This document shows positions 555 through 19,818 of a stretch of DNA of 20,086 nt, piece after piece (within the stretch, counting starts at the first letter, position 1; every line of letters begins with the position of its first letter). The stretch covers positions 1-20,086 of the forward strand of contig JAKSBO010000032.1 of the NCBI GenBank assembly GCA_022361095.1, in the 5' to 3' direction. The position numbers were made by a program, and so were the translations under genes. The DNA comes from Desulfobacterales bacterium. GTDB taxonomy: Bacteria; Desulfobacterota; Desulfobacteria; Desulfobacterales; Desulfobacteraceae. Under the pieces are notes generated by a model. That model worked only from the letters and a program-made list of their open reading frames with translations, made no database searches and was not told where the DNA came from.

Positions 555-617
555 TGTTATAGGCAACAGTAGACAGCCCAAAACATCGAATAAAGCCAAT
601 TAAAACAAATTTGAGAT
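555..617 (+). promoter_or_regulatory. Cargo upstream element, copy 1
   Basis: This leader of the first cargo gene shares three blocks, in the same order, with the leader of the second cargo gene: TGTTATAGGCAA (555-566), AATTAAAAC (598-606) and TTGAGAT directly before the ATG. The right arm of the hairpin seen in copy 2 is here only GCCCAAAACA (578-587), 8 of 10 matches. No good Shine-Dalgarno sequence precedes the ATG. The conserved TTGAGAT may be part of the translation start, or simply reflect common descent of the two cassettes. Confidence 0.5.
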
Positions 618-2003
618 ATGTATAAACAAGTAGAAAAGTCGAAAGAAAATAAGAGTAGGATGGTTGCTAATTCTGTAACTCAGAAAAAAAGAAATGGGAA
701 GCAAAGCTTTGGGTTTGTGGATAATCGACCTGAAGGTGTTGTACTAAGAGGGGTCAATGGTTCAGTACCTATGCAGCGAAAGGATCTCTCTATACAGTTT
801 GCTTCGGAATACGATGGGATACTGCCGGCACATGACACGTATCAAGATTCATACAAATTCGGGCCGACCGAGGAGGGAAGGTCCAAAAAGTTCACGTATC
901 ATCACATAATACCGGAGAATAAACTTAAGCTGGTTGCCACTGAATTGAAGGGCATTAAAAGTTACTTTTCGGACCTGGATGAAACGGAGGATAACAAGAA
1001 ATTGCGAGGCAAAGGAACAGAACTTGATAATAAGGTGAATGGTCTTGTTTCCGGTGCGAAGTCGGTTTGGTTGAACACCAGAATCACGAATGTCACCTTT
1101 CAGATCAACAGTAGGTACAGCATCTACAGTATCGCCGTTACCGAGTCTGAGGTTGGTGACATACTTCGGAACAATAATGAAACCCTTGATGTTCTATTCC
1201 CGCTTTTCCGCGATTTGATAAAGGCAAAGGCACAACGGGCCTACGATAAAGCAAAAGGGGCCATTAAAGGGTGTGTGAAAAATGCACTCAAGGAGGATCG
1301 GTTCTACGGCTTTGTAAACACTTCCAATAAGGATGGTATCGAAGAGGTGCTGACTAGCCGATTGGACGGAAATTTTTTCAATTTTAATACGGTTATGACG
1401 AACATAATGGATGCCCTTAAAGAATTAAGAAAATCTCAAAAATATGGTTTTCTAAACAAAAGAGAGGTAATGGACAGTTTTACTTCCGCAATAACGCCCT
1501 ATGACTGGGACTACTACTATGCTCCCGCGTTACATCAAGACGCCACTACTTCTGATGACCATTTAAAGAAAATCATCCAGCAAAATGGGCTGCCTCATGC
1601 AGAACAGAACCATCTGAAACATGCTGTTCAATGGAATCCTGGCAATATTCACCGTGGACCTTCGTCTACCTATAGGTTGAACCCTGACTCTGATGATTTT
1701 GATGATCTATCTGATGATGGCGGGGAAAAATTCGAAAAGGCAGCGGTCAATTTGCTGAAAACAGGTCATTTTAAAAAACTTGAAACATTGAGTGGAGACA
1801 TTGATACATTCCTACTGACAAAAGTAGCCAATACGGCCCCGGATAATACCAAAGTCGAGCTCGCCTGCAAAATAGTCGATCAGATGAAAGAAATTCAGGC
1901 TCTTGGGGCTACTCAATTTCGAGAAGAGCAGTGGGAGAAGAAGGGTGTAGACAAAATGCGACTGAAAAAGGTACAGGAGAAGATCTCTGCCGCATACGAT
2001 TAA
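618..2003 (+). CDS. Putative eCIS cargo with DNRP leader and HNH-like C-terminal region
   Basis: This 461-residue protein has no signal peptide or membrane helix. Residues 1-45 are polar and basic (NSVTQKKRNG at 18-27, VDNRPEGVV at 34-42) and match the N-terminus of the next gene product. VDNRP followed by (A)QRK-like residues is a motif I associate with the start of proteins from DUF4157/eCIS neighbourhoods. After it come YHHIIPENKL (94-103) and, ~240 residues later, NHLKHAVQWNPGNIHRGP (331-348) with an acidic LNPDSDDFDDLSDD tail. HHIIP plus a WNPxN...GP...DD block recalls HNH/AHH-type nuclease toxins, with the long insert between. The nuclease call is inference; the modular leader-plus-effector design is visible. 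The gene is AT-rich compared with the eCIS block. The ATG at 618 is supported because similarity with the next gene begins at its first residue. Confidence 0.7.
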   Translation: MYKQVEKSKENKSRMVANSVTQKKRNGKQSFGFVDNRPEGVVLRGVNGSVPMQRKDLSIQFASEYDGILPAHDTYQDSYKFGPTEEGRSKKFTYHHIIPENKLKLVATELKGIKSYFSDLDETEDNKKLRGKGTELDNKVNGLVSGAKSVWLNTRITNVTFQINSRYSIYSIAVTESEVGDILRNNNETLDVLFPLFRDLIKAKAQRAYDKAKGAIKGCVKNALKEDRFYGFVNTSNKDGIEEVLTSRLDGNFFNFNTVMTNIMDALKELRKSQKYGFLNKREVMDSFTSAITPYDWDYYYAPALHQDATTSDDHLKKIIQQNGLPHAEQNHLKHAVQWNPGNIHRGPSSTYRLNPDSDDFDDLSDDGGEKFEKAAVNLLKTGHFKKLETLSGDIDTFLLTKVANTAPDNTKVELACKIVDQMKEIQALGATQFREEQWEKKGVDKMRLKKVQEKISAAYD

Positions 2004-2050
2004 GGTGTAAATGGGGTCGGGCCGTATTAACCTATTGAAACAAAATAAAA

Positions 2051-2109
2051 TGTTATAGGCAATAGGGAAAAGCCTATAACAATCACATAAAATTAAAACG
2101 GGTTGAGAT
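2051..2109 (+). promoter_or_regulatory. Cargo upstream element, copy 2, with perfect 10-bp hairpin
   Basis: TGTTATAGGC (2051-2060) and GCCTATAACA (2072-2081) are perfect inverted repeats around an 11-base A/G-rich loop. AATTAAAAC (2091-2099) and TTGAGAT before the ATG at 2110 follow. The same blocks occur in order before the first cargo gene. There is no T-run after the stem on the + strand, so it is not a clean intrinsic terminator for the first cargo. It could be a protein-binding site, an mRNA leader structure, or part of a recombination or cassette boundary. Confidence 0.55.
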
Positions 2110-3369
2110 ATGTATAGGCAAGACGAGAAATCTAAAAAGAACACCCCCATCGCCAACTTGCGGAAAAGTAGGGCGGTTGTTAATTCTGTTTCTCAAAAGC
2201 GGAATGGCGATAAGTCTGCATTTCAGTTTGTAGACAATCGGCCAGAGGTAGTTGCACAGCGAAAACTGCAAGATATGGCTATAGATAGTCCACAAGTAAA
2301 ATATGCTGCTCAATTGAAGGCAATTACACCTGTACAAATGATAGCAAGGGGAGGTGTTATTCAAAGAGAATTAGCCCAAGGTAGCTATCTTACCAGTGCG
2401 GCTGCCAATTTTAGAAGGCAAAGCTGGCCTTACAGGGTAATTAGAACCTTACCTCAGTGGACAACGGTACAAGTAATAGATAAAGGCGACCGGGATGATA
2501 ATTTTTCCCTTGGGGGTATTTTTGGCACTAAGCATTCCCATTCCTGGGTAAGATTGCTTGATGGAACAGAGGGGTGGATTAAAGATACTAATCTAGAATC
2601 ACTGGACGCAAAATCGGACGCGACCTACGACCGCTTTAAGGGAGGAAGAACTGGAGCAGAATTAGGCATTAGTTCTACTCCTGCCTTTCAAGCAGGAGAC
2701 TATCGCAGGACCTTAGCTTGTTATAATTTTGCCGTTGGATCCTTCGATCCAAATAGTGATGAAAGACAGCTTCAGGCCTCCATACCAGAATATGTTTCAC
2801 TTCGATATGGGATAAAAACAGGAATAGTTGTTAACCAAGCTACAGCCAGAGAAGATATGACTAGTGGGTCGATTAGTGGATCCAGAGCCGCAGCCATCGA
2901 TCAACTTATGCAAAACGCTGGAATGAATATAGTTCCAGGAAATCAAAACCCCGATTGGTTTGAAGGAGGTGGACGTGCTTTAAGGGTTGCCTTAAAGCAA
3001 CCACTCCAAGAGTATATTCTCAGAGAAAGTGGATTTGAGGTAAACCCCGCAGGAAGATGGGCGGTCGGATTTCGGGGCTCCCCAACTGAGTTAGGGAGCG
3101 ATCACGCTTGGTTAAAATTAATTGATCCACTTCATCCGAATCGATACATAACTTTTGATACCTTTCCTGCTAGTCCTAGAGTTCAAGCCAATCGAAAACG
3201 ACACGCAGATCCTTATCTGCCGCGGGCTGGAGAAGCAGATTTTCAAATCAATGTTACCGGTCCTACCGCTCCCCAATGGGCCATTCTGGGCATGATCCCC
3301 AGTGTTGCAGGAATTGCAATTGAAACGGATAATGATGACCGAACAAACCTACACCCCCACGGCTACTAA
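2110..3369 (+). CDS. Putative eCIS cargo with DNRP leader, SH3-like module and candidate cysteine hydrolase domain
   Basis: This 419-residue protein has no signal peptide. Residues 1-75 form the leader: MYRQDEKSKK, NSVSQKRNG (25-33), VDNRPEVVAQRKLQDMA (41-57) and SPQVKYAAQLKAI (60-72). This is the fuller form of the motif common at the start of DUF4157-associated proteins. Residues ~88-165 look like a bacterial SH3 domain (SYLTSAAANFR, VIRTLPQWTTVQVIDKG, HSWVRLLDGTEGWIKDTNLE). The rest contains CYNFAVG (Cys204), DHAWLKLIDP (His332) and YITFDTF (Asp350). That order and spacing suit a papain/NlpC-like Cys-His-Asp triad, but this is only a pattern-level inference. It lies 106 bases after the first cargo, with a related upstream region, and is AT-rich. 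Whether it acts on cell-wall peptide, protein or another substrate cannot be told. Confidence 0.65.
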   Translation: MYRQDEKSKKNTPIANLRKSRAVVNSVSQKRNGDKSAFQFVDNRPEVVAQRKLQDMAIDSPQVKYAAQLKAITPVQMIARGGVIQRELAQGSYLTSAAANFRRQSWPYRVIRTLPQWTTVQVIDKGDRDDNFSLGGIFGTKHSHSWVRLLDGTEGWIKDTNLESLDAKSDATYDRFKGGRTGAELGISSTPAFQAGDYRRTLACYNFAVGSFDPNSDERQLQASIPEYVSLRYGIKTGIVVNQATAREDMTSGSISGSRAAAIDQLMQNAGMNIVPGNQNPDWFEGGGRALRVALKQPLQEYILRESGFEVNPAGRWAVGFRGSPTELGSDHAWLKLIDPLHPNRYITFDTFPASPRVQANRKRHADPYLPRAGEADFQINVTGPTAPQWAILGMIPSVAGIAIETDNDDRTNLHPHGY

Positions 3370-3818
3370 GTGTCTGCTTCACTTATGGGGTGTGTAAATA
3401 AGATGTTGTTCAAGGATAAGAAAAGTCCATAACAAAACTTAATAACGGCCATGGCCGACCTGGTCTTTCACCGAGGTTGAGCCATAACAAATCATTAAAG
3501 AAACTAAAAGGTTAGTTCAGTTCTTTCATATAAATCATTAAAATGTTTTTTAGCCAATTGCTCGCCCCCTCTAAAATCGTCAAGCCGAATCAGGGGAAAG
3601 GCAAGGTCTGATGATTTTCAAGGCCCACCTATCCTGTGACGGGTCTGATTTATCCGAACAACGATAGTGGCGGGACTCATCTCCTTTCGTGTCGTTTCAG
3701 GGAGATCAACATCGAAAAGAGCTGTTACGAAAACCCAAAAAAACCTCCCAAGACCATTAAACCAAAAGAGTTAGCTGTCTACTGACAGCTTAACACCAAT
3801 AAAAGGAGATCTCTAACA
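3370..3818 (+). other. Intergenic region between the cargo genes and the eCIS operon
   Basis: About 450 bases without a convincing gene. It contains a weak third echo of the cargo leader (TGTT at 3404, then AGAAAAGTCCATAACA ending at 3434), a 12-bp palindrome CGGCCATGGCCG (3446-3457), a second CCATAACAAA block near 3483, and an open stretch at 3615-3785 that may be a gene remnant. Base composition shifts here from AT-rich cargo to GC-rich eCIS genes. A promoter for the eCIS operon is expected in this region, but I cannot place -35 and -10 boxes with confidence. AAAAGGAG (3801-3808) is a strong ribosome binding site for the gp25-like gene. Confidence 0.6.
3615..3785 (+). pseudogene. Start-less 56-codon open stretch, possible gene remnant
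   Basis: Open between two consecutive TGA codons (3609-3614) and TGA 3783-3785, ending 33 bases before the gp25-like start. The translation looks protein-like, with pieces such as TGLIYPNNDSGGTHLL and a basic tail KKPPKTIKPKELAVY. It has no ATG, only an internal GTG. I do not recognise it. It could be the decayed 3' end of a gene once upstream in the operon (for instance a spike or PAAR-type gene, which is missing here), or chance openness. Confidence 0.2.
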
Positions 3819-4229
3819 GTGCCTGAAGACCGTAATTTCCTGGGCCGGGGCTGGGGGTTCCCCCCGCGGTTCAACCGGGGGGGGCAGTCCGTTTCCATGG
3901 TGGCCGGGGATGAGGATATCAAGCAGAGCCTTAAGCTTTTGTTGCTGACCGCCCCCGGGGAGCGGGTGATGCATCCTGAGTTTGGCTGCGGGATACGCTC
4001 CATGGTCTTTGATACCGTGGACACGGCAACCATTACGATGATTCAGGATCTCATTCAGCGCGCCGTGCTTTTTTTCGAACCCAGGGTGGTATTGGAACGG
4101 GTGGATGTGGATACCCGTCGGCAATACGATGGCCGGCTGGATATTTTCCTTGAGTACAGGGTCAAAACCACCAACAGCCGCCACAATATGGTTTTTCCTT
4201 TTTATTTTTTCGAGGCAACGGATGGATAG
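3819..4229 (+). CDS. eCIS baseplate wedge protein, gp25-like (Afp9 type)
   Basis: This 136-residue cytoplasmic structural protein is equivalent to T4 gp25 and T6SS TssE, and joins the baseplate wedge to the first sheath ring. It shows the classical family features: GWGFPPRF near the N-terminus (11-18), then SLKLLLLTAPGERVMHPEFG (37-56). The TxPGER...PEFG core is the hallmark of the GPW/gp25 family. A C-terminal strand region ending VFPFYFFEA follows. Length is normal for the family. Translation starts at GTG 3819 behind the strong AAAAGGAG at 3801-3808. It is the first gene of the GC-rich eCIS block and overlaps the next gene by eight bases, which points to translational coupling. Confidence 0.92.
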   Translation: MPEDRNFLGRGWGFPPRFNRGGQSVSMVAGDEDIKQSLKLLLLTAPGERVMHPEFGCGIRSMVFDTVDTATITMIQDLIQRAVLFFEPRVVLERVDVDTRRQYDGRLDIFLEYRVKTTNSRHNMVFPFYFFEATDG

Positions 4230-7200
4230 TGATCCCGGGGATATCAGGCGCAGGATTTTTACCAAGGGGGGGACGGACCGTACGACCCGCAGGTCGCACC
4301 TGCTGGGAAAGGATAGTGTCAGCCCCTTTTGCTCGGGCACCAGGGAGCGTATAACGCTTGGGGCGGTCCAGGCAAATATGTTGGCCTGGTATGACCGGGA
4401 TAATCGAACGGCCGGGAGCTGGGCGCCTTTTTTTTCGGAAGATGAGACCCTGGTCCTGGGAAGAATTGCAGGCCTGGACATTGACGGGATCAAGGCCCGA
4501 TTTCTGAAAGAAGAAGATACCAGGCCCCGGCTTTGCTGGGATCTTGTGAAAATTATGAATGACTGGCTGACCCTGTTTTCAGCCATGGATACGGATTCGG
4601 CTCAACGGATGAGCGCCCGGATACGTACGGTGATCCGGGACCGGGCCTCCCTGGCTCTGCTGCCTCAGCCGGCAGGGGAAGGGGTTGATCCGGATCTCCT
4701 TGATCCGGTTTGGCAGGTCAACACCCAGTCGTTTGGTTCGGTCCAAGGAGGTCTTGAACATTTTTTTTACGGCCTGGTTAACGGGTTGACCCAAATCAAA
4801 GCCGCGGCCGAAACACTGTTTATCCCCTCCATGGAAGGGGGGCGCCACGATCCTTCGGCCGGGCTGTTTATCAGTTTTCTTTCTCTCATGGACCTGGTCC
4901 GTGACCGGGCCGACCGGTTCATGGAACGTTACCTGGATTTTTACCTCTACAACGTACTCAGGACAGTGCCGGATCCGGGCCGTCCGGACAGGGCCATTCT
5001 TTTATTCCAGGCCTCGGGCCAGGGGCAAGAGGCGAAGGTTGAAGCGGGGTGTCCCTTTATCCGGGGTGACGGAAGTACCATTCAGGAGCAGGAGTACCGG
5101 GCCGACCATGATTTGAGCATTACTGATGCACAGGTCGAAGCCCTGTCCACCCTCTATTTTGACATGAACCCCTATATCTCGCCGGAAAAGGAGATGGGGT
5201 TCGTCACCGGGGTTTATCTGAACACCATTGACCCGGAAACGGATACCGGCGGGCAGACAGACGGAATTCCCCTGTTCGGCAGCCGGGCACCCTTGAAAAA
5301 CGGGACGGCCGGTACCTGGTCACCGGCCCGGATGGGGCTGGCCCTGTCCAGCCCGGTGCTGCGGATGAGTCAGGGAGAGCGCCGGGTCCGGGTGGACATT
5401 GATTACCAGACCGGACTTGGGGTGACCCGTATGCTGGAAAAGCGGCTGGCGATCAAGACCCCGGCCCTTGGGGAAGATAACCTGGATTTAAGGGATCTCT
5501 TTTTCAAGGTTTTTGATAAGGCGCTGATACTTTCCCTTACAGGGCCTAACGGATGGATTCCCATCGGGGATTACCGGCCCATTCATGCCGTTGCCGCCCC
5601 TGAAACGGCACCTGGCCGTCTTTCTCTGTTCTTTCATTTGGGCCCGGATGCGGATCCTGTCGTTCCCTGGCGCCAAGAGATCCACGGCGGGGATTACGCC
5701 CCGGGCGAACCCGTGCTCAGGTTCATGCTGAACCCGGACGCCCATGCCTTTCTCTTCTCTTTTTTTTCCGCCCTGAGACTTAAGCGGGTGCAGATCACGG
5801 CAGAGGTCAAAGGTTACAGAGACCTTGTTTTATATAATGACGGGGGGCGGCTTTCCCCTGACATTGCCTTTGCCCCGTTCGGCCCCTTTCCCGAACCCGG
5901 GGCATCCTTCACCGTGGGTTGCCACGAAACCACCAATAAAAATATCACCCGGCTCGACATCGGTGTTGAGTGGGAACTGCCCGGGCAGACACGGTGCCCG
6001 GCATCTTACTACCAGGGATATGACAAGCCCGGGGATACCCGGTTTGAGACCAGGATTTCCACCTTGACGGACGGGGTGTTCCATCCTGATGATCCGGACC
6101 GGCAGGTGCCGTTCAGTCTATTTACTGATACCGATGGAAATGATGCTGTGATGGAGAGCACCTTGCGTCCGTTCACGCGTTTTCGCCTGGATGGGGATAA
6201 ATTCCGCCTCTTCAAACAGAGAGCAGATCCGGTGTCCAAAGAGGCGTTTGCCCTGGACAGCGGTACCCGGTGCGGTTTTGTCCGGCTGACCCTGGCGGCC
6301 CCAGCCTGGGGCTTTGGGCACAGGGAATACCAAGGGCTTTTGGCCGATGTTTTGACCCGAAACGCCCTGAAGAAAAAAGCCGGCCTGACCGTGGCAGTGC
6401 CCAACCCGCCCTGGACCCCCATGATCCGTAAGATCCGGATGGATTATACGGCAGTGTCCCATTTTACATCCCAGGACCTGAACCCTGTCGGCGGCGGCCG
6501 GGCAGGCAACCGCCTTTTCCACATCCAGCCATTCGGCATTGATTCCCTGGACGCACACACCGACCGGGGTCCTGTCTGTTTTTTGCCCTGGTTTTTCATG
6601 CCGCCCAAGGATGGTGCCGAAACATTTTACGATCCCTCATACGGGAGCCTTTTTATTGGCGTACGCAGCAGCGGAATCCCGGGTGTTCTTACCCTTTTTT
6701 TCGACCTGAACCAGGAGGGCCGTACCCGGATTACGGAGAAACAGTCCCGTATCTTTTGGCATTATCTGCAAGGAGATGACTGGAAGGCTATGTCGTCCAG
6801 GCGTATCCTCTCCGATACCACCCAGGGCTTTTTGACTTCCGGGATTGTTACCTTGGATATCCCCGGCGATATCACCAGGCAAAACAACGTGATGGATCCC
6901 GATCTTTACTGGTTGCGTGTCTCTGCCCAAGGCAACCTGGATACCTTATGCAGCCTGGCCGGTGTTCACCCCCACGGGGCTTATGTGACCCGGTCCGACA
7001 GAGAAGATGCGATCAAAGCAAAGAACGGTGAAGAAACAGGGACCATCATAGAACGGGCAAAGACCGCCCTGCCCGGGGTTTCGCGGATTTCCCAGGCCAC
7101 GGCCTTTTTCGGGGGCAGCCAAAGGGAAACAAATGCCATGACAAAGGATCGGGTCCGGGAACGGCTGCGCCATAAGATGCGGGCCGTCACCCCCTGGGAT

Positions 7201-7929
7201 TACGAGCGGCTGGTACTGAGCGAATTCCCGGAAGTTTTCAAGGTCAAGTGCTTTACCAACCTTTGTTCTCTTGATAAGGAATTGTTTACCCATGATTTCA
7301 ACCGGAACCTTTCCCTGGCCCAAAAACCGGGCCATGTGCTGGTTATTCCGGTTGCAGGGCAAAACAATGCGGTCATGCCGGAAGGCAAGCTTCCCCGGTT
7401 GAGCCGGGTAGTCCTTGAACGCATCCGGATGTTTTTGTCCCGTCATGCCTCCCCCTTTGCCAAAATCAGCGTTGAAAATCCGGTATATGAGCGAATCCGG
7501 GTCCGGTGCCGGGTGGCATTCGCCGGGCGGGAGAATCCGGGCCGGGATATCCGCCGGCTGAACCGGGTTCTGTGGGAGTATCTCTCCCCGTGGCATCCCA
7601 AAGGATACGGGGGCCGGTTCGGCTGGCAGATCCGGTCCGAGGATGTCATGGCCCATATCAGCGGGCAGCCCTATGTGAACGGGTTGACCCGATTTTCCAT
7701 GCTGAAAATGACGGATAAGACCCGTGGCTGGTATGGACTTTTCGACACCAGTGACCCGCTTCACACCGGAGAAGCACCTGAACTGATCCAGCCTTTTTAT
7801 CCCTGGAGCCTTGCCGTACCCGATACCCACCATACCATAGAGACAGTGGAGAGTGCCGTTCCGGAAAAGGGCGAACCGGTAGGTATCGACACCCTTGAAA
7901 TCGGCACCTCATTTATCATTGACCGTTAG
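4222..7929 (+). CDS. eCIS baseplate J/gp6-like wedge protein (Afp11 type)
   Basis: This large (1235 residues) cytoplasmic baseplate wedge protein is placed directly after the gp25-like gene, as in other eCIS loci. The frame is open further upstream, but I chose ATG 4222 because it overlaps the gp25 stop and has GAGG at 4212-4215. The C-terminal quarter is the recognisable part: RERLRHKMRAVTPWDYERLV (about 977-996), then HVLVIPVAG, a helix with RIRMFLSRHASPFAKI, and YERIRVRCRVAF. This matches the end of gp6/baseplate J-like proteins, which carry an RAVTxxDYE-type segment before a β-rich core. The first ~900 residues lack motifs I can name and are probably the long wedge arm. No membrane segments. 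Homology to Afp11 rests on motif and gene order. Confidence 0.85.
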   Translation: MDSDPGDIRRRIFTKGGTDRTTRRSHLLGKDSVSPFCSGTRERITLGAVQANMLAWYDRDNRTAGSWAPFFSEDETLVLGRIAGLDIDGIKARFLKEEDTRPRLCWDLVKIMNDWLTLFSAMDTDSAQRMSARIRTVIRDRASLALLPQPAGEGVDPDLLDPVWQVNTQSFGSVQGGLEHFFYGLVNGLTQIKAAAETLFIPSMEGGRHDPSAGLFISFLSLMDLVRDRADRFMERYLDFYLYNVLRTVPDPGRPDRAILLFQASGQGQEAKVEAGCPFIRGDGSTIQEQEYRADHDLSITDAQVEALSTLYFDMNPYISPEKEMGFVTGVYLNTIDPETDTGGQTDGIPLFGSRAPLKNGTAGTWSPARMGLALSSPVLRMSQGERRVRVDIDYQTGLGVTRMLEKRLAIKTPALGEDNLDLRDLFFKVFDKALILSLTGPNGWIPIGDYRPIHAVAAPETAPGRLSLFFHLGPDADPVVPWRQEIHGGDYAPGEPVLRFMLNPDAHAFLFSFFSALRLKRVQITAEVKGYRDLVLYNDGGRLSPDIAFAPFGPFPEPGASFTVGCHETTNKNITRLDIGVEWELPGQTRCPASYYQGYDKPGDTRFETRISTLTDGVFHPDDPDRQVPFSLFTDTDGNDAVMESTLRPFTRFRLDGDKFRLFKQRADPVSKEAFALDSGTRCGFVRLTLAAPAWGFGHREYQGLLADVLTRNALKKKAGLTVAVPNPPWTPMIRKIRMDYTAVSHFTSQDLNPVGGGRAGNRLFHIQPFGIDSLDAHTDRGPVCFLPWFFMPPKDGAETFYDPSYGSLFIGVRSSGIPGVLTLFFDLNQEGRTRITEKQSRIFWHYLQGDDWKAMSSRRILSDTTQGFLTSGIVTLDIPGDITRQNNVMDPDLYWLRVSAQGNLDTLCSLAGVHPHGAYVTRSDREDAIKAKNGEETGTIIERAKTALPGVSRISQATAFFGGSQRETNAMTKDRVRERLRHKMRAVTPWDYERLVLSEFPEVFKVKCFTNLCSLDKELFTHDFNRNLSLAQKPGHVLVIPVAGQNNAVMPEGKLPRLSRVVLERIRMFLSRHASPFAKISVENPVYERIRVRCRVAFAGRENPGRDIRRLNRVLWEYLSPWHPKGYGGRFGWQIRSEDVMAHISGQPYVNGLTRFSMLKMTDKTRGWYGLFDTSDPLHTGEAPELIQPFYPWSLAVPDTHHTIETVESAVPEKGEPVGIDTLEIGTSFIIDR

Positions 7930-8850: not shown

Positions 8851-10791
8851 ATGATGAATAAATCACAAGACATACCCCTCTCCTTTGATCGCTTGCGGGA
8901 GATGGGCATTGAAGAGATCCAACGGCTTTCCGGAGAGCTCTGGACCGATTATAATCTGCATGATCCGGGCGTGACCATCCTGGAGCAGCTCTGCTATGCC
9001 CTGACGGATCTCGGGTACAGGGTCGATCATGATGTGGCAGACATCCTGGCCGGGGAAGACGGCACCATTGATTTTGAGAAGCTCGGGCTCTGCCTGCCCG
9101 AGCAGATCTATCCCTGCCGGCCTGTAACCGTCAATGACTACCGGAAATTGATCCTTGATGCAGATCCCCGGATTGATGCCGTCTGGATTGAGCCTGAAAC
9201 GGACGGGACCCCGCGATACCGCATCCGAATCAAACCCGGCGTATTTGCCCATGGGGACCGGACCTTTAATAAGGCGGTGGTTGAAACGGTCACACGGGTG
9301 TACCATCGGCACCGCAATCTTTGCGAAACCTTAAGCGCAATATCAGTGGTGGAGACCCAAAAGGTCACCATGTCCGCAACGGTGGATATCCGTGCAGACG
9401 TTTCCCCCGAAGCCGTCCTGGCCCGCATCTATTTTGAAGCCTGCAGAGATATTTCCCCCTGGCCTGAGTTTCAATCATTTAAAACCCTTGAACAAGCGGG
9501 CATTCCCCTGGCGAAAATATTAGAAGGGCCGCTGCTTACCCACGGTTTTTTAGATGAAAAGGAGTTTAAAGACAGGGACAGGACCGTCATGAAAGAGGAG
9601 ATCGGGGCAACGCTTTTATCCGTTGACGGGGTGAGGCAGATAAGAGATCTTACATTTTTAGGGCCGGACCAAAAACCCATTTCCCATTTTAACTGCCGCC
9701 ATATTCTGGGCCTGCCGGAAAACCTTGATGGCATCCAGGTGAACCTGCGCAGGGATAAAACGCAATTTTGCGTCTCATTCTTCGAGTTTACCTATGAACT
9801 GGAACGGCTGTTCGGCACCCATACACAGGTCAGGACACGGTCCAAAAGCATGGCGTCATACCTGCCGCCCCCCCGGGGCAGATACCAGGATATTAAACGG
9901 TATTATTCCATCCAGAACCATTTCCCTAATGTGTACGGGATCAATTCATTCGGGGTCCCGTCCTCACAGGGTGCCGAACGGAAAAGCGATGCCCGCAATT
10001 TAAAAGCCTATCTTCTCCTGTTTGAACAGGTGATGGCCGATTTTTTAACCACGCTTCACCACCTTCCGGATTTTCTCAGCCTGGATACCGACATGGATCC
10101 GGGCGGCTGGTACAGGCCCTTGCGGGAGGATGTCATTCCCAACGGCCGCAGGCTCTATCTTGATGACCCGGGCATTGATGAGGCCTTTGGGGCGGCAGTG
10201 AGATCCCAGTTGAATTTTGATGATGTGAAAAACAGGGTGTTTGATATTCTTTTGGCCCTGTACGGGGAATCTTTGACCCAGCCCAACGTGCCGGATGAGC
10301 AGCAGCGGATTAAAAACAAGGCCTTATTTTTGAAGCAGATCCAAAGGATCAGCCGGAATCGCGGCGGGGCCGCCAACATCCAGGTTCCTTTGGGTGGCAA
10401 CAATATCAGCGGCCTGGAACATAAGGCCCGGATACTGGCCGGCCTGGCCCCAGGGGTGAAGTTGTACCTGGTGGAGCATATTCTTCTGTTCCCAAAGGAT
10501 TCCGAGGCCCGGGCCGATTTGCCCCCTGATTTTTTTCCCAGCCGTGTCAGTGTTGTATTCAGCAAAGCGGACTTTGACGATACCCAGGGGATGGCACAGC
10601 TTAAACAGGCGTTTGACCTGAACTGCCCGGCCCATATTTTATGCGGATTTTACGGGTTGGCCCCCGACCTTATGGCGGAATTTGAAAAACGCCACAAACC
10701 ATGGGCCAAAGCCGTTATGGATAAAGACGCCGGGGAGAGGGACGCCCTTAGCGTCAGCCTGATACATTTTTTGGTGTCTCTGGAACGTTAA
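8851..10791 (+). CDS. eCIS baseplate protein, Afp12-like
   Basis: A 646-residue protein. The N-terminus carries the segment I associate with the Afp12/PVC12 group of baseplate proteins: IQRLSGELWTDYNLHDPGVT, then ILEQLCYALTDLGYR (residues ~24-58). The pattern continues with CRPVTVNDYRKLILDADPRI (~91-110), as in the J-like wedge family. The remainder has no motif I can name beyond repeated wedge-like strands and a C-terminal LYLVEHILLFP segment typical of this group. No signal peptide or membrane helix. ATG 8851 (or 8854) directly follows the hairpin repeat and has no clear Shine-Dalgarno sequence, so translation may depend on the upstream structure. It is followed after five bases by the tape measure gene. 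It is thought to complete the wedge ring with the gp6-like protein. Confidence 0.85.
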   Translation: MMNKSQDIPLSFDRLREMGIEEIQRLSGELWTDYNLHDPGVTILEQLCYALTDLGYRVDHDVADILAGEDGTIDFEKLGLCLPEQIYPCRPVTVNDYRKLILDADPRIDAVWIEPETDGTPRYRIRIKPGVFAHGDRTFNKAVVETVTRVYHRHRNLCETLSAISVVETQKVTMSATVDIRADVSPEAVLARIYFEACRDISPWPEFQSFKTLEQAGIPLAKILEGPLLTHGFLDEKEFKDRDRTVMKEEIGATLLSVDGVRQIRDLTFLGPDQKPISHFNCRHILGLPENLDGIQVNLRRDKTQFCVSFFEFTYELERLFGTHTQVRTRSKSMASYLPPPRGRYQDIKRYYSIQNHFPNVYGINSFGVPSSQGAERKSDARNLKAYLLLFEQVMADFLTTLHHLPDFLSLDTDMDPGGWYRPLREDVIPNGRRLYLDDPGIDEAFGAAVRSQLNFDDVKNRVFDILLALYGESLTQPNVPDEQQRIKNKALFLKQIQRISRNRGGAANIQVPLGGNNISGLEHKARILAGLAPGVKLYLVEHILLFPKDSEARADLPPDFFPSRVSVVFSKADFDDTQGMAQLKQAFDLNCPAHILCGFYGLAPDLMAEFEKRHKPWAKAVMDKDAGERDALSVSLIHFLVSLER

Positions 10792-10796
10792 GCCTG

Positions 10797-13700
10797 TTGA
10801 ACGGCAATCATAAAATAAGGACCCTTGGCGTTCATACCCGTTTTGATTCGGAAGCCGTGGCAATGGAGAGTCAAAAGGCGCTTACCGCTTTTGCAGGGGA
10901 ACGCTTGCCCCGGATTATGGAAGAGGTGTTTAACAGCCGTTCACGGCCAGGCCTTATCCGCAGGTTTGGCAGGGTTGAACTTGATCTGGGCGCGATTTCC
11001 GAGGATGAATTTCCGGACGGTATTGAAGAGAGATTGCGTCAAAAACTTGCGGATTTTTTTGATAATCATCCGGTGCTTAGGGAACCGGTTTTATCCTCGT
11101 CAAATTCACGGCAGCTGGCTTTTGGGCAGGCCGAAGAAGAGGCGATTCTTTATTTTCTTGAAAACGGCACGCTTCCCTGGCACGGGCCATTTTCCAATGC
11201 AGAGGACATAACGGCATCCCTTGGGAAACGATTGGAGACCCGGGCCGCTTATTTCATTAATCGGCTTAAGGCGCTTCCGGATATCAAAACCATGGTGACG
11301 CGCCTGGTCCGCCAGTTTCCCGAAGAGATTCTGGAAAAAATTCTGGAAACGGCCGTTCCGGGCAGGGGCCGGTCGACCCGGGAGGTCATTCAGGGCGTGG
11401 CGGGGGGTTATGCTGCGGGGGCTGGTCACCGGGCTGGAAAAGATTCCGGCAGCAGGGCCGGCACTGTTGGGGAAATAAAGGATCATGTATGGGAACATGT
11501 GTTGCGGATTACCTTGGGGGCACCTGGTATCTTCCCAGTACTCCTCAAGCTGGCATTATCGCAACATGATTCCCCGGAAGCCCGGCAGGAAATTTCCCGG
11601 GTTCTCCAGCGCCTGCCCGGCACCCCTGCCATGGCTTTCGCAGGGGGGGGCCCTAACCAGCCGGACGCTTCGCCCGTGACCCCTTCTTTTTGGGCCAGGA
11701 GGTTTCAAAAGGTGATGCAAACATCCGGGAGGCAATCAGACCGTTTGGCTGATCCGGATCTTCCCCGGATCTGGGGGGAGGTCATCCTGCACTGTTTTGA
11801 CGCCTTGGACGAAGAGAGTCCGGTCAAGCAGGAGGCCGTCCTGACACCTGCTCCGCCGGCGGTATCTCCCTCCCAGGAGTTCTCCGAGGAGGAGCCGAAA
11901 TTCCGTAAAACCATTACGGATCACCCTGTGGAAAATTGTCCGGATAAGCAGACACATGGAGATCAAATACGCCGGCCCGCTGAAAGTAAATCCATCAATG
12001 CCTCCCCAGGAAAAGAGGTACTGAGTGGGGTCAGGCCTAGGGCCGGAGCCGCCACCTCAGTAACCCAAACCGCTAAGGGCGGTGCAGATACGGTAATGAC
12101 CGGTGCGTTAACGGGAAACAATGCCGGCTCTTTGGAACGGGCCGTTTTAAATACCAGGGTGCAAAAAAATGAGGCCCCGGAGAGCGCAGAGCCGCTTCAA
12201 TCAATTGTTGGCCGTCATTCTTTTTGGGCCGATAAAACTTACGCTGCGCTTCAAAAAAACGGTGAAAAAACATTTCAGAAGATTGATCCGGATTTCTTCC
12301 GGCTTCAAGGAAAGGCGATTTTGCGTGCCTTTGAATCCTTGGCAGACGACGTTTTGACCAAACTGGAAACGGCCCTTAACCCTTTTCCGGTTCCTGTATC
12401 ACGCCAGCGGGAGAAGAGTGACGGGGAACGTGAAGCCCATGAAACCATTACGGAAAACTCTTTGGACAACTGCCTGGATAAACAGGTGCATGGCGATCAA
12501 ATACGCCGGCCGGCTCAAGGTAAATCTGTCAAAGAATCTTCAAGAGAAGAAGGAGCCAATGGCGGTTACAATTTGGATAATGGGGGCAGGATTGGGGGTG
12601 AAAGCCGCTCTTTAGGAACCGAAATTCCCGAAGATGGGGCAGATGCGGTCATGCCCGGTTTGTCCATGGAAAATAGTGTTGGGCCCACTCATGGCGATTC
12701 CCGGAATGGACATCCGGATTCAGGAATTTTGGATGGGGATGTTCCCGGCACCCCAGTACGGAAAGATGAAGCCGCCCGGGAAGATGTGCTGCTTAAATAC
12801 AGCATTGGCAGGGACGCCTTTGGTGGTGATAAGATTCAAGTTGAGCGCCGAAAATCCGGCAGAAGACCAGTCCGTTCAGCCGATTCGGATTTGCACCGAA
12901 CCGGGTACGAGGGGATCCTGCACGGCGCTGAATCCCTGGCTGATGGCATTCAAATCAAGCCGGCAAAGGCCCTTAAGCCCTTTTGGGTTCCTGTATCGCG
13001 CCAGCGGGAGAAGATTGAGACGGAACTGGAATCCAATCACCCCCTTGGGGATAATCCTTTGGGCAACTGCCCAAATAAACAGGCGCCTGGAGATCAAATA
13101 CGCTGGCCCGGTCAAGGCAAATCCGTCAAAGACGCTTCAGGAAAAGAGGTCGCCAATGACGCTGAAGAGCCGGATAATGGGTTCAGGATCGGGGCCGGAA
13201 GTCCTGCTTTAAGGGATGAACGCATCACGGGCGATGCAGATGCAGGAATGACCCGCCCTTCAATGGAAAACCTTACCGGGTCGCGTCGTGGAGATTTTCG
13301 GGGGGGGAATCCGGATTCAGATCTTTTGGACAAGGCCGCGCTCACGTCTGCGGCAAAAAAAGATGAAACCACGGAAAATCCGTTACTGTTTCAGTCAGAC
13401 GCCGGCAGTCCTTTTGTCAGGTCCGGGGAGATGGGGTATAACGGCCATGGGCCGACATGGCCTGTCAGCGACCGGACCGGTCCCACAATAAACTGTGAAA
13501 GTAATTCAGCAACTTGTGGGCATCTTCATATAAATGTATATCTTCAGTGGATACAGCGCCTTTTGGACTGCCTTGGGGCGATGGCGGATAATGATGCGCC
13601 TGCCTGTTTCACTGGGGAGGCTTTGCCGGTGATGGGTGACATGATCTTTGACGCTGCAGTCTCAACGCCGAACCCCGAGATGTTCCTGGCAGAGCTGTCG

Positions 13701-17786: not shown

Positions 17787-18425
17787 ATGCCGAAAACATT
17801 TATCCCAAGGCCCAACGTCCGGGACACTCATTCCACCAGGCCTGAATCTAAAGGCAAAATGAGCGCCCGCATTCCTGACAATCGACCGATATCGGCAGTC
17901 CAGCGCAAGATTATCCGGACGGTCCAGATGAAATTTACTGAGCCGGAACCTATTCAGGGAAAAGGCATTGCACAAAGAGCTGAATTGGAAGATGAAGAAC
18001 TGGCCCAGGGCAAGTTTGCTCTCCAGAGGGAAATTGATGACGAAGAAGAGATCCAGGGGAAGTTTAATTCATCTGCACTGCCGGCTCAGAAAAAAGAGAA
18101 TCAGACGGGACTGCCCGATCACGTCAAGGACGGAATGGAATCGTCCTTTAATACGGATTTTTCCGATGTCAGGGTTCATGCCGATTCCAAAAAAGCAACC
18201 CAGGTCGGTGCACTGGCCTATACCCAGGGATCTGATATTCATTTTGCACCGGGGCAGTTCAGTCCGGATTCAGGGGCAGGCCGCCAGCTTCTGGGCCATG
18301 AACTGGCCCATGTGGTTCAGCAGCGCCAGGGCCGTGTCCAGGCAACCACAGAGGTGAACGGGATGCCGGTGAATGACAGCGCATCCCTGGAACAGGAAGC
18401 AGATATTCTGGGCAGGAAGGCCTGA
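17787..18425 (+). CDS. DUF4157 eCIS-associated protein with HELAH metal-binding motif
   Basis: A 212-residue protein. DNRPISAVQRKI at 31-42 echoes the VDNRP leader of the two cargo proteins. Residues ~53-92 hold three acidic repeats ending in QGK (57-59, 74-76, 90-92). The DUF4157 domain follows from ~107: LPDHVKDGMESSFNTDFSDV, VHADSKKA, ALAYTQGSDIHFAPGQ, then LLGHELAHVVQQRQG with HELAH at 171-175 and a C-terminal LEQEAD (201-206) that could supply the third zinc ligand. DUF4157 is well known for co-occurring with eCIS loci, alone or fused to toxins. Its activity is not established to my knowledge; a zinc protease or a cargo-processing role is possible. Here it stands alone, with nothing after the domain. 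ATG 17787 has AAAGGAG at 17773-17779. An ATG at 17782 is out of frame. Confidence 0.88.
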   Translation: MPKTFIPRPNVRDTHSTRPESKGKMSARIPDNRPISAVQRKIIRTVQMKFTEPEPIQGKGIAQRAELEDEELAQGKFALQREIDDEEEIQGKFNSSALPAQKKENQTGLPDHVKDGMESSFNTDFSDVRVHADSKKATQVGALAYTQGSDIHFAPGQFSPDSGAGRQLLGHELAHVVQQRQGRVQATTEVNGMPVNDSASLEQEADILGRKA

Positions 18426-18462: not shown

Positions 18463-19818
18463 TTGAGTACAATCTCTGATGGCGGTAAAAACAGCACCAC
18501 ACTTGAAAGGGAACTGGCCTGGTTCAACCGGGTGCTGGAAGCCAGGATTGCGCTCTATTTTGAAAATGCCTGCCCGGTTCAATCCATTTATGAAATTCTT
18601 CCACCGGGCCTGGACAGGGATGATTCCACCTATGCCCGGTTTGTGAAGTCAAACGGATTTAACTATGATGAGCGCATTATCCTCATACTCTCACTGATCC
18701 CCCACATTCGTCCCCATCTTCTGGATACTTTTTTTATACATAATAAGAACTTTGACCGGCCCTTTACTGAGTTCGGCGGGTGGAAGGGCATGAGCCACGG
18801 CGGTTTTCTCCCCACAGGAGAGACGGCATCATTCATCCTGGCCGCAGGCGACCTGGACAAACGATTTGAACTCATGACCCTTCTGGGGAGCGACCACGGA
18901 TTTGCAAAACAGAACATACTGAGACTTGAAAACAACAGCAGGCACGAACCCTTTTTCAGCGGAGCCCTTGTGATCTCGGCCGAATATCTCAGTCTGTTTA
19001 CTACAGGCGCCGCCCATAAACCGGATTATAATATCGCGTTTCCTGCCAAGCTGACGACCACCCGGCTCACTTGGGAGGATCTTGTCGTTCCGGGCCAGGT
19101 CGCTGAGCAGATTGAGCATATTAATTGCTGGATCCGGCATACCGGCACCATCATGGATGAGTGGGGATACGACAGGGTACTAAAACCCGGATACCGAAGT
19201 CTGTTTTACGGCCCGCCCGGCACAGGCAAAACCCTGACGGCAACCTTGATCGGCCAGGGGGTGGGAATGGATGTGTACCGGATTGATCTTTCAATGATCG
19301 TGTCCAAGTATATCGGTGAAACGGAAAAGAATCTGGCCAATGTGTTTGACCAGGCCGAAAGTCGTGACTGGATACTTTTTTTTGATGAAGCCGATGCCCT
19401 TTTCGGAAAAAGAACCCAGGCTAACTCATCCAATGACCGCCATGCCAACCAGGAGATATCCTATCTTCTCCAGCGTATCGAAGATTTTCCCGGTTTGGTG
19501 ATTCTGGCCACCAATCTGAAATCGAATATTGATGACGCCTTTGCACGGCGTTTTCAGTCCTTGGTTTACTTCCCCGAACCCGATGCCGAAGATCGCCTGC
19601 AATTGTGGCAAAGGGTTCTAAGTTTAAATCATCATAATCTGGATGAGGACGCCGTCAGGCAAATTGCGACCAAATACCGGCTGACGGGCGGTGCCATTGT
19701 GAATGTGTTAAGGTATGCTGCCGTCCATGCCCTCAGAAGGGACCGGCGCCGGATCGAACAGGGCGATTTGATCAAAGGCATATCCAGGGAATTGGTCAAG
19801 GAAGGCAAAACACCCTGA
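18463..19818 (+). CDS. eCIS AAA+ ATPase (Afp15 type)
   Basis: A 451-residue cytoplasmic ATPase. The first ~230 residues are the variable N-domain common in eCIS ATPases. The AAA+ core shows Walker A GPPGTGKT (250-257), Walker B ILFFDEADALFG (about 303-314), sensor 1 ILATNL (Asn351) and arginine-finger-like DDAFARRF (357-364). The pore-loop region reads SKYIGETEKN. In the Afp/PVC family this gene is required for assembly or maturation and has been tied to cargo loading; the exact step is unclear. The start is taken at TTG 18463. An in-frame TAA at 18448-18450 blocks any upstream start, and TAAGG (18448-18452) could serve as a ribosome site. The gene lies 37 bases after the DUF4157 gene, and a terminator follows. 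Confidence 0.9.
   Translation: MSTISDGGKNSTTLERELAWFNRVLEARIALYFENACPVQSIYEILPPGLDRDDSTYARFVKSNGFNYDERIILILSLIPHIRPHLLDTFFIHNKNFDRPFTEFGGWKGMSHGGFLPTGETASFILAAGDLDKRFELMTLLGSDHGFAKQNILRLENNSRHEPFFSGALVISAEYLSLFTTGAAHKPDYNIAFPAKLTTTRLTWEDLVVPGQVAEQIEHINCWIRHTGTIMDEWGYDRVLKPGYRSLFYGPPGTGKTLTATLIGQGVGMDVYRIDLSMIVSKYIGETEKNLANVFDQAESRDWILFFDEADALFGKRTQANSSNDRHANQEISYLLQRIEDFPGLVILATNLKSNIDDAFARRFQSLVYFPEPDAEDRLQLWQRVLSLNHHNLDEDAVRQIATKYRLTGGAIVNVLRYAAVHALRRDRRRIEQGDLIKGISRELVKEGKTP

Follow-up and report, generated by a model that had tools for sequence, protein, structure and literature searches.

The stretch of DNA analysed here (the window) comprises 20,086 nucleotides of a Desulfobacterales bacterium (G000:C356:1-20086 of a 5.2 Mb draft genome) and sits within an extracellular contractile injection system (eCIS) locus encoding gp25-like, J-like and TIGR02243-like baseplate proteins and an AAA ATPase. 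Near its start lie two adjacent plus-strand open reading frames (ORFs), cargo genes A (618..2003, 461 aa) and B (2110..3369, 419 aa), whose products share an N-terminal leader with the core F.FVDNRPEA.AQRKLQE near residue 35, referred to below as the DNRP leader. The leader covers approximately residues 1-61 of A (618-800), where it is followed by a folded domain, and residues 1-74 of B (2110-2331). Both genes are preceded on the same strand by an exact copy of a putative cassette-start motif, GTTATAGGCAA. The first copy occupies 556..566 and the second 2052-2062, and the distance from the motif G to the ATG is 62 nt for A and 58 nt for B. These two copies, starting at 556 and 2052, are the only exact ones in the window. 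The cassette start of B (2051..2081, plus strand) also contains an inverted repeat, TGTTATAGGC (2051-2060) and GCCTATAACA (2072-2081), and this arrangement of repeat and motif recurs before many other leader genes of the MY type. As judged from sequence comparisons, the leader is probably a modular, sequence-conserved N-terminal tag for eCIS loading, and the genes that carry it probably form a shared pool, many of whose members would be integron-type cassettes or descendants of them.

The leader of A and B

The initial annotation had described the N-termini of A and B as alike and the remainder of the two proteins as unrelated, and both parts of this description hold. Residues 1-90 of A and B align with a score of 125, which none of 2000 shuffles equalled (best 60), whereas the alignment from residue 61 to the end scores 37, a value equalled by 573/2000 shuffles. 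Relative to A, B contains a 7-residue insertion after residue 11. The similarity extends to the DNA, where an alignment over the two gene starts scores 35 (best of 500 shuffles, 17) and begins upstream of both ATGs. A leader profile built without the window's own sequences matches A at 68.3 bits and B at 79.3 bits. The common leader is therefore firmly established.

An AlphaFold2 model of A, built from 25 sequences, is otherwise good (mean predicted local distance difference test score 83.4), with residues 1-61 scoring below 50, so that the leader of A is predicted to be disordered; the model of B is poor throughout. Kyte-Doolittle sums over the first 50 residues are -48.3 for A and -56.3 for B, indicating a hydrophilic segment; each protein has one aromatic residue within its first eight, and the charge over residues 6-21 is +2 for A and +5 for B. 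These values fit the trends in hydrophilicity, charge and aromatic content described for eCIS signal peptides (PMC11297309), where the hydrophilicity of Pdp1 is given as -36.9, the fit being judged trait by trait and apart from the published support vector machine. Like such a signal peptide, the leader is found at the extreme N-terminus, spans 50-70 residues and precedes varied effectors.

Behind the leader, A contains invariant HHIIPE (95-100) and HRGP (345-348) motifs in an alignment of A with 24 of its 33 other homologues, and a Foldseek search with the A model returned no PDB match at E 0.001 or better. B has a weak SH3_3 match (E 0.0043, below cut-off) between the leader and the C-terminal domain, and invariant Cys204, His332 and Asp350 are present in B-type proteins; together these suggest a cysteine-protease-like triad or enzyme. 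The five other homologues of B all have DNRP at 33-35. The DUF4157 (eCIS_core) domain PF13699, which is present in the protein encoded at 17787-18425, was found in neither A nor B.

Spread of the leader and the proteins behind it

A protein search with the B leader retrieved eight other proteins with similar starts and different ends, one of which carries PF03068 together with PF13699 and another PF13930. A scan of species genomes identified 67 loci, which were found with the pattern [FD][QG][FG]VDNRPE, so that the invariance of the core among them is by construction. Read from the record names, these loci belong to Bacteroidota, Cyanobacteria, several Pseudomonadota, anammox Planctomycetota, Manganitrophaceae, Deltaproteobacteria and SAR324. 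Eighty leader ORFs were kept, 78 of them with an ATG start, and 66 of these loci contributed at least one; five further ORFs holding DNRP were dropped, one of which, in locus L061, is now taken for a diverged leader gene. The position of the core was not part of the search seed, and the D of DNRP falls at residue 35 in 57/78 and at residue 34 in 13/78 of the leaders. At 27 loci found otherwise than by the core pattern, the leader profile matched 27 ORFs, of which 21 have DNRx and 16 DNRP (counted by eye; the script gave 15, its pattern catching an earlier DNK once).

The first 60 residues of 82 proteins (the 80 plus A and B) form one single-linkage BLAST group, and the parts behind the leader and DUF4157 fall into 60 groups among 77 proteins. 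According to Pfam, eCIS_core is present in 32/80 leader proteins (A, B and 78 others); behind the leader, GNAT domains occur in two of the 80, and an APOBEC-like deaminase, a Peptidase_M91, an OTU, an MLD and a p25-alpha domain in one each. NCBIfam recognised one family, in 1/80. The swapping of toxin domains behind a constant leader, proposed from the window alone, thus extends to a wide set of proteins. The swap is also seen in the reverse sense, as the C-terminal domain of A has homologues in 33 other proteins whose N-termini differ: by reading, a canonical leader in P0018, diverged leaders in P0011, P0025, P0032-P0035 and P0043, an LQR..GNRAV-like start in P0016, P0023, P0040 and P0041, and DUF4157 without the leader in, for example, P0013 and P0028. 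The tagged genes are a horizontally shared, mobile pool across phyla. In the viral_contigs set, eight stretches matched the leader pattern and none encodes a relative. A text search of the literature for VDNRPE returned no paper, and one for DNRP with toxin returned matches that are, by title, apparently unrelated.

The leader core in the DUF4157 protein

The window encodes a DUF4157 (eCIS_core) protein (17787..18425, plus strand, 212 aa; PF13699, E 6e-29), the only PF13699 match found in its own genome, which had been proposed to echo the leader. The sequence DNRPISAVQRK is indeed present at residues 31-41 (17877-17909), and the rest of the leader is missing there. Against the profile built without the window's sequences, the protein scores 8.6 bits (best of 2000 shuffles, 7.9), and among the window frames its E-value is 0.038, too high for inclusion by HMMER. 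Its N-terminal 100 residues match A and B weakly, with 2/2000 and 1/2000 shuffles, respectively, scoring as high. The spaced core DNRP....Q[RK]K, a pattern picked after it had been seen in this protein, arose in none of 200,000 shuffles of the first 110 residues. The echo is thus plausibly a core-motif match, short of a demonstrated third leader, and this motif may have the same job as the leader core in A and B.

This shared core also raises the alternative that, instead of docking to the particle or the ATPase, the leader is recognised or cleaved by the DUF4157 protein or serves to bind an immunity partner or chaperone. The presence of the core in the window's own DUF4157 protein and of eCIS_core in 32/80 leader proteins favors such a role. 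However, 48/80 leader proteins are without an eCIS_core match at E 0.001, and many eCIS_core proteins are without the leader. We regard this alternative as unlikely, but the least so of those considered; it is also compatible with a loading tag.

Cassette boundaries, hairpins and arrays

Many leader genes, including A and B, open at a sharp G|TTATAGGCAA boundary, and the DNA upstream of MY-type leaders is similar across phyla. When 35 leader genes were aligned on GTTATAGGCAA (allowing up to two mismatches), the 40 nt on its left held 0.105 bits of information per site and the 34 nt on its right, which in some rows extend into coding sequence, held 0.446. The ATG lies 34-39 or 57-65 nt from the motif G in 31/35 of these genes, A and B among them. 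The motif is present within 110 nt upstream of 33/78 leader genes, compared with 32/741 other ORFs. In a subset of leader genes, the 5′ boundary is therefore sharp and coincides with the cross-over point. In the case of A and B, the boundary motif is the one feature that points to an origin as cassettes, and they may have arrived as such. Just 5′ of the first motif lies an ORF of 128 aa (135-521) that may belong to a preceding cassette; no match to it in Pfam exceeds the cut-off.

Some leader genes, in Bacteroidales, Pseudoalteromonas, anammox and Deltaproteobacteria loci for example, are followed by an imperfect palindrome of 55-57 nt, whose inner stem shows covariation (some sites having been chosen for palindromy). 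In 1.13 Mb, a covariance model identified 38 sites (E < 0.1), each of them on the same strand as the leader gene through which its locus had been collected. A site lies within 400 nt downstream of 22/75 leader genes, most of these sites having been used to build the model; of the 13 other ORFs that had a site in this count, 8 resemble variant leader or DUF4157 cargo genes. With the model-building genes excluded, a site follows 8/71 leader genes and 8/698 others (p = 2.5e-5). The model did better than simple attC-like patterns, which gave 28 candidates of mixed quality, followed 11/80 genes and matched 11 sites, compared with none in the reversed sequence. The attC-like hairpin thus follows a subset of leader genes. 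Specificity of the site to tagged genes was rejected, as it follows other genes too and occurs in 7/31 leader-negative genomes.

The R boxes of these sites read GCCTATAAC and GTTATAGGC and depart from the integron consensus RYYYAAC/GTTRRRY. Relatives of the site after some other genes are, by reading, nearer to this consensus, which suggests that the site is of attC type and not a private element. Behind B, a possible decayed attC-like remnant (3480..3562, plus strand), weak and non-significant on its own, contains GCCATAACAA at 3481 and a weak covariance-model match at 3529-3557 (21.5 bits, E 0.23). No Rfam family was found at gathering scores in the window and seven loci. In two loci, a small gene lies between the leader gene and the attC-like site (L004:3366-3980 and L062:1013-1525); these are candidate partner or immunity genes, the former with no Pfam match at E 0.01.

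L152, from a gammaproteobacterial metagenome-assembled genome (MAG), encodes a 478-bit integron integrase (5726-6703). After it, on the opposite strand, come in this order an apparent attI and first attC, a leader gene whose ATG is near 4940, the palindrome (4309-4255) and an apparent second attC, which ends GCGTTAGGC. The leader gene of L152:4255-6703 thus apparently forms the second cassette in an array that adjoins an integrase. Integrases over the TIGR02249 cut-off are found in or near the array in 2/67 loci: L027/L152, where the array is next to the integrase, and the Shewanella locus L053, where a 393-bit integrase is 3.6 kb from the leader gene. The profile recognised eight leader ORFs in succession, with two palindromes, in an anammox MAG (L013:1102-11899). 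In another Shewanella locus (L041:3775-13120), four genes of a run of six pass the leader profile and two are alike by eye only, with palindromes after each of the last five. Similar tyrosine recombinases or fragments, in two phyla, end 161-253 nt before the leader gene (L005:8704-9840, L007:9389-9748 and L016:9606-9839); that of L005 is over the NF040815 cut-off and under that of TIGR02249. A clear subset of tagged genes looks like integron-type cassettes.

At the level of whole genomes, an integrase over the TIGR02249 cut-off is present in 12/49 carriers (own genome included) and in 1/31 controls, a comparison confounded by phylum since all 31 controls belong to one Bacteroidota family. At E 0.001, the integrase family matches all 80 genomes and all of a further 14 controls, and 0/14 of the latter are over the cut-off. 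The 464-bit integrase of the window's own genome is on a contig other than the window's, with no attC-like site on that contig at E 1.

Conservation of the leader as protein

The conserved boundary and upstream DNA would also be expected if the leader had no role as protein and were simply the 5′ DNA of a cassette, retained as recombination boundary, translation start and homology arm for 3′-end swaps; the sharp onset of the conservation across phyla and the location of tagged genes in arrays are in keeping with this. The codons, however, argue otherwise. Among the 57 leaders with the core at residue 35, codons 2-30 show mean proportions of nonsynonymous (pN) and synonymous (pS) differences of 0.39 and 0.65, with pN < pS in 1532/1596 pairs, and codons 31-48 show 0.15 and 0.77, with pN < pS in 1591/1596 pairs, the low pN of the latter being partly by construction as these codons partly coincide with the search seed. 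Between the leaders of A and B, neither of which was found via the seed, pN is 0.25 and pS 0.85. Synonymous sites have thus diverged while residues were retained, indicating that the leader is conserved as a protein and not only as DNA. Moreover, the position of the core is fixed (residue 35 in 57/78 and 34 in 13/78), and the genes are retained almost exclusively where an eCIS is present. A role confined to the DNA is therefore improbable, and a protein-level function such as loading is preferred.

Association of the leader with eCIS

The presence of an eCIS was scored by the tail-terminator domain Pvc16_N alone, for which none of 14 control genomes was positive. Pvc16_N was found in 45/48 leader-carrier genomes (54 carriers by accession prefix, 48 scored). 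The window's own genome has two Pvc16_N matches, both on contigs other than the window's. Background frequencies were obtained from two phyla, that of the window, which was scanned with a smaller leader profile (A1), and that of an Algoriphagus carrier (Bacteroidota), which was scanned with a profile of 59 hand-picked rows (A2). In the former, Pvc16_N is present in 14/297 genomes and the leader in 1/297, the window's own genome. In the latter, Pvc16_N is present in 65/296 and the leader in 3/296, all three with Pvc16_N and one being the sample centre.

The best-controlled test comes from one family of the Algoriphagus-carrier phylum (245 genomes), in which 27 genomes carry the leader and 98 Pvc16_N. 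Pvc16_N is present in 25/27 genomes with the leader and in 73/218 others (p = 2e-9). With the leader threshold set at E < 1e-5, the proportions are 20/20 and 78/225 (the 225 including seven weaker leader matches), or 14/14 and 78/225 when six previously known carriers are excluded. The leader had been expected to be confined to eCIS-bearing genomes, and it nearly is.

Service of another export route, such as a type VI secretion system (T6SS), that merely co-occurs with eCIS could in principle produce the same association, all the more as Pvc16_N was the one export-system marker scored in the carriers. Nevertheless, the association persists inside a single family, the window genes adjoin eCIS baseplate genes and 32/80 leader proteins carry eCIS_core, all of which render this explanation very unlikely. 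Finally, a recent local duplication, to which the adjacency of A and B and their similar upstream DNA might point, is ruled out for practical purposes as the source of their common leader by the A/B pS of 0.85 and by the occurrence of this leader in front of unrelated proteins from many phyla.

Tagged genes frequently do not adjoin the eCIS genes. Of 65 tagged genes in the family above, 24 share a contig with Pvc16_N and thus have a measurable distance to it, 8 of them lying within 25 kb and 16 beyond 25 kb; the other 41 are on contigs without it.

Proteins with eCIS_core were also sought in 44 genomes with Pvc16_N and were present in 37 of them. This set consisted of the 14 positive genomes of the window's phylum sample (the window's own and 13 others) and of 30 genomes from the Algoriphagus-carrier sample, where 62 have Pvc16_N but no leader. 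Among the proteins read at 30 loci (L082-L111), the N-termini often follow FF.P.[IV]Q.KL..G...D.YE.EAD. These eCIS_core proteins of leaderless eCIS genomes have other N-terminal motifs in common. These data suggest several leader classes, of which the DNRP leader is one.

A probable loading tag on possibly cassette-borne cargo

In the mechanism that we favor, a disordered, hydrophilic leader of about 50-70 residues would mark proteins as eCIS cargo and drive their loading, most likely through recognition by the loading ATPase or the tube. Different effector domains, with or without DUF4157, would be placed behind it. The tagged genes would form a horizontally shared pool, many of them being integron-type cassettes or descending from such cassettes; the conserved 5′ end of a cassette would combine the recombination boundary, the ribosome-binding region and the leader, and some tagged cassettes would still terminate in an attC-like hairpin. 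The AAA ATPase of the window (18463..19818, plus strand; PF00004, E 3.6e-29) is, by analogy to Pvc15, a candidate cargo loader or chaperone and may be what reads the tag; tblastn relatives of it lie near leader genes in 7/67 loci. Pvc15 differs in having tandem AAA domains, whereas one PF00004 stretch was reported in the 451-aa protein of the window.

Several observations weigh against this mechanism or limit its reach. Three of the 48 carriers are without Pvc16_N, as are two of the 27 leader genomes of the family, both with weak leader matches, and Pvc16_N is present in 73/218 leader-negative genomes of that family. The eCIS_core proteins from leaderless eCIS genomes (30 loci) start differently, which implies that only a part of all eCIS would use the tag. 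In a single-sequence tblastn search of the flanks (up to 10 kb), only 9/67 loci had a relative of any eCIS protein of the window. With respect to the cassettes, no attC-like site lies within 400 nt of 53/75 leader genes, the window's own genome is without one at E 0.001 and the window has only the weak remnant behind B. At the same threshold, a site is present in 7/31 leader-negative genomes, all 31 belonging to one Bacteroidota family, compared with 27/48 carriers, the latter including the sites from which the covariance model was built. Apart from that of the window's own genome, carrier integrases over the cut-off come only from records read as non-Bacteroidota.

The MIX and RIX domains of the T6SS, a different machine, are short N-terminal effector domains that serve as small markers on polymorphic toxins, and the DNRP leader resembles them as far as this general description goes. 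Integron cassettes share with the tagged genes the G|TT boundary, the imperfect palindrome after the gene, the arrays and, in one case, the adjoining integrase; they differ in that the hairpin follows under a third of the tagged genes and that the R boxes are off consensus.

The N-terminal signal peptides of PVC (Photorhabdus virulence cassette) and Afp (antifeeding prophage) cargo (PMC11297309, PMC11495950) are similar to the leader in their location at the extreme N-terminus, length of 50-70 residues, disorder and hydrophilicity, as well as in the varied effectors behind them and an AAA ATPase gene in the locus. For the eCIS signal peptide, PMC11297309 reports no specific conserved sequence; unlike those peptides, the DNRP leader has a core conserved across phyla, and its carriers extend well beyond Afp hosts. 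The AlgoCIS cargo proteins Cgo1 and Cgo2, located in the tube lumen, are described as resembling each other in their disordered N-terminal regions and differing in their C-terminal ones (PMC8894135); they are like A and B according to this published description, except that both have DUF4157 and A and B do not. The likeness to eCIS-associated DUF4157 toxins (PMC8213781, PMC11297309) lies in the eCIS_core of 32/80 leader proteins. Distance to eCIS core genes is reported to be among the most influential features of the published toxin classifier (PMC8213781, PMC11297309); in the present set, only 8/65 tagged genes are known to be within 25 kb of Pvc16_N. In the Vibrio cholerae T6SS, the stepwise insertion of effector modules has been likened to integron cassette capture, with, according to that paper, so far no evidence of an integrase inserting the modules (PMC5361080). 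In contrast to those modules, one tagged gene sits in an integrase-bearing array.

A conserved tag would make cargo findable anywhere in a genome and its recognition testable residue by residue. The cassette route, if true, would explain the same kind of cargo in unrelated bacteria and would link the integron and eCIS fields; a text search of the available literature returned no paper joining integrons with eCIS or DUF4157, its one match being a V. cholerae study that, by its title and the opening of its abstract, is no precedent. More tentatively, since we hold this broader picture to be possible rather than probable, eCIS of many phyla may draw on a common pool of ammunition, in which toxin cassettes come pre-fitted with a universal loading tag and capture of such cassettes re-arms the syringe; in some cases a dedicated recombinase would lie next to the first of them.

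Other features of the window

All remaining annotated baseplate genes are on the plus strand. A gp25-like baseplate wedge protein (3819..4229; PF04965, E 1.3e-25) is overlapped by the longest ORF of a baseplate J-like protein (4105..7929; PF04865, E 0.0065, and TIGR02243, E 3.4e-9, both below cut-off), the true start of which may be downstream. A second baseplate-type protein is encoded at 8851..10791 (TIGR02243, E 3.4e-10, below cut-off). Visual inspection of the 1530-residue ORF at 10797-15389 suggests that (C)PNKQ..GDQIRRP is surrounded by three imperfect repeat units built on it; tblastn relatives of the ORF are present in L013, L024, L056 and L068.

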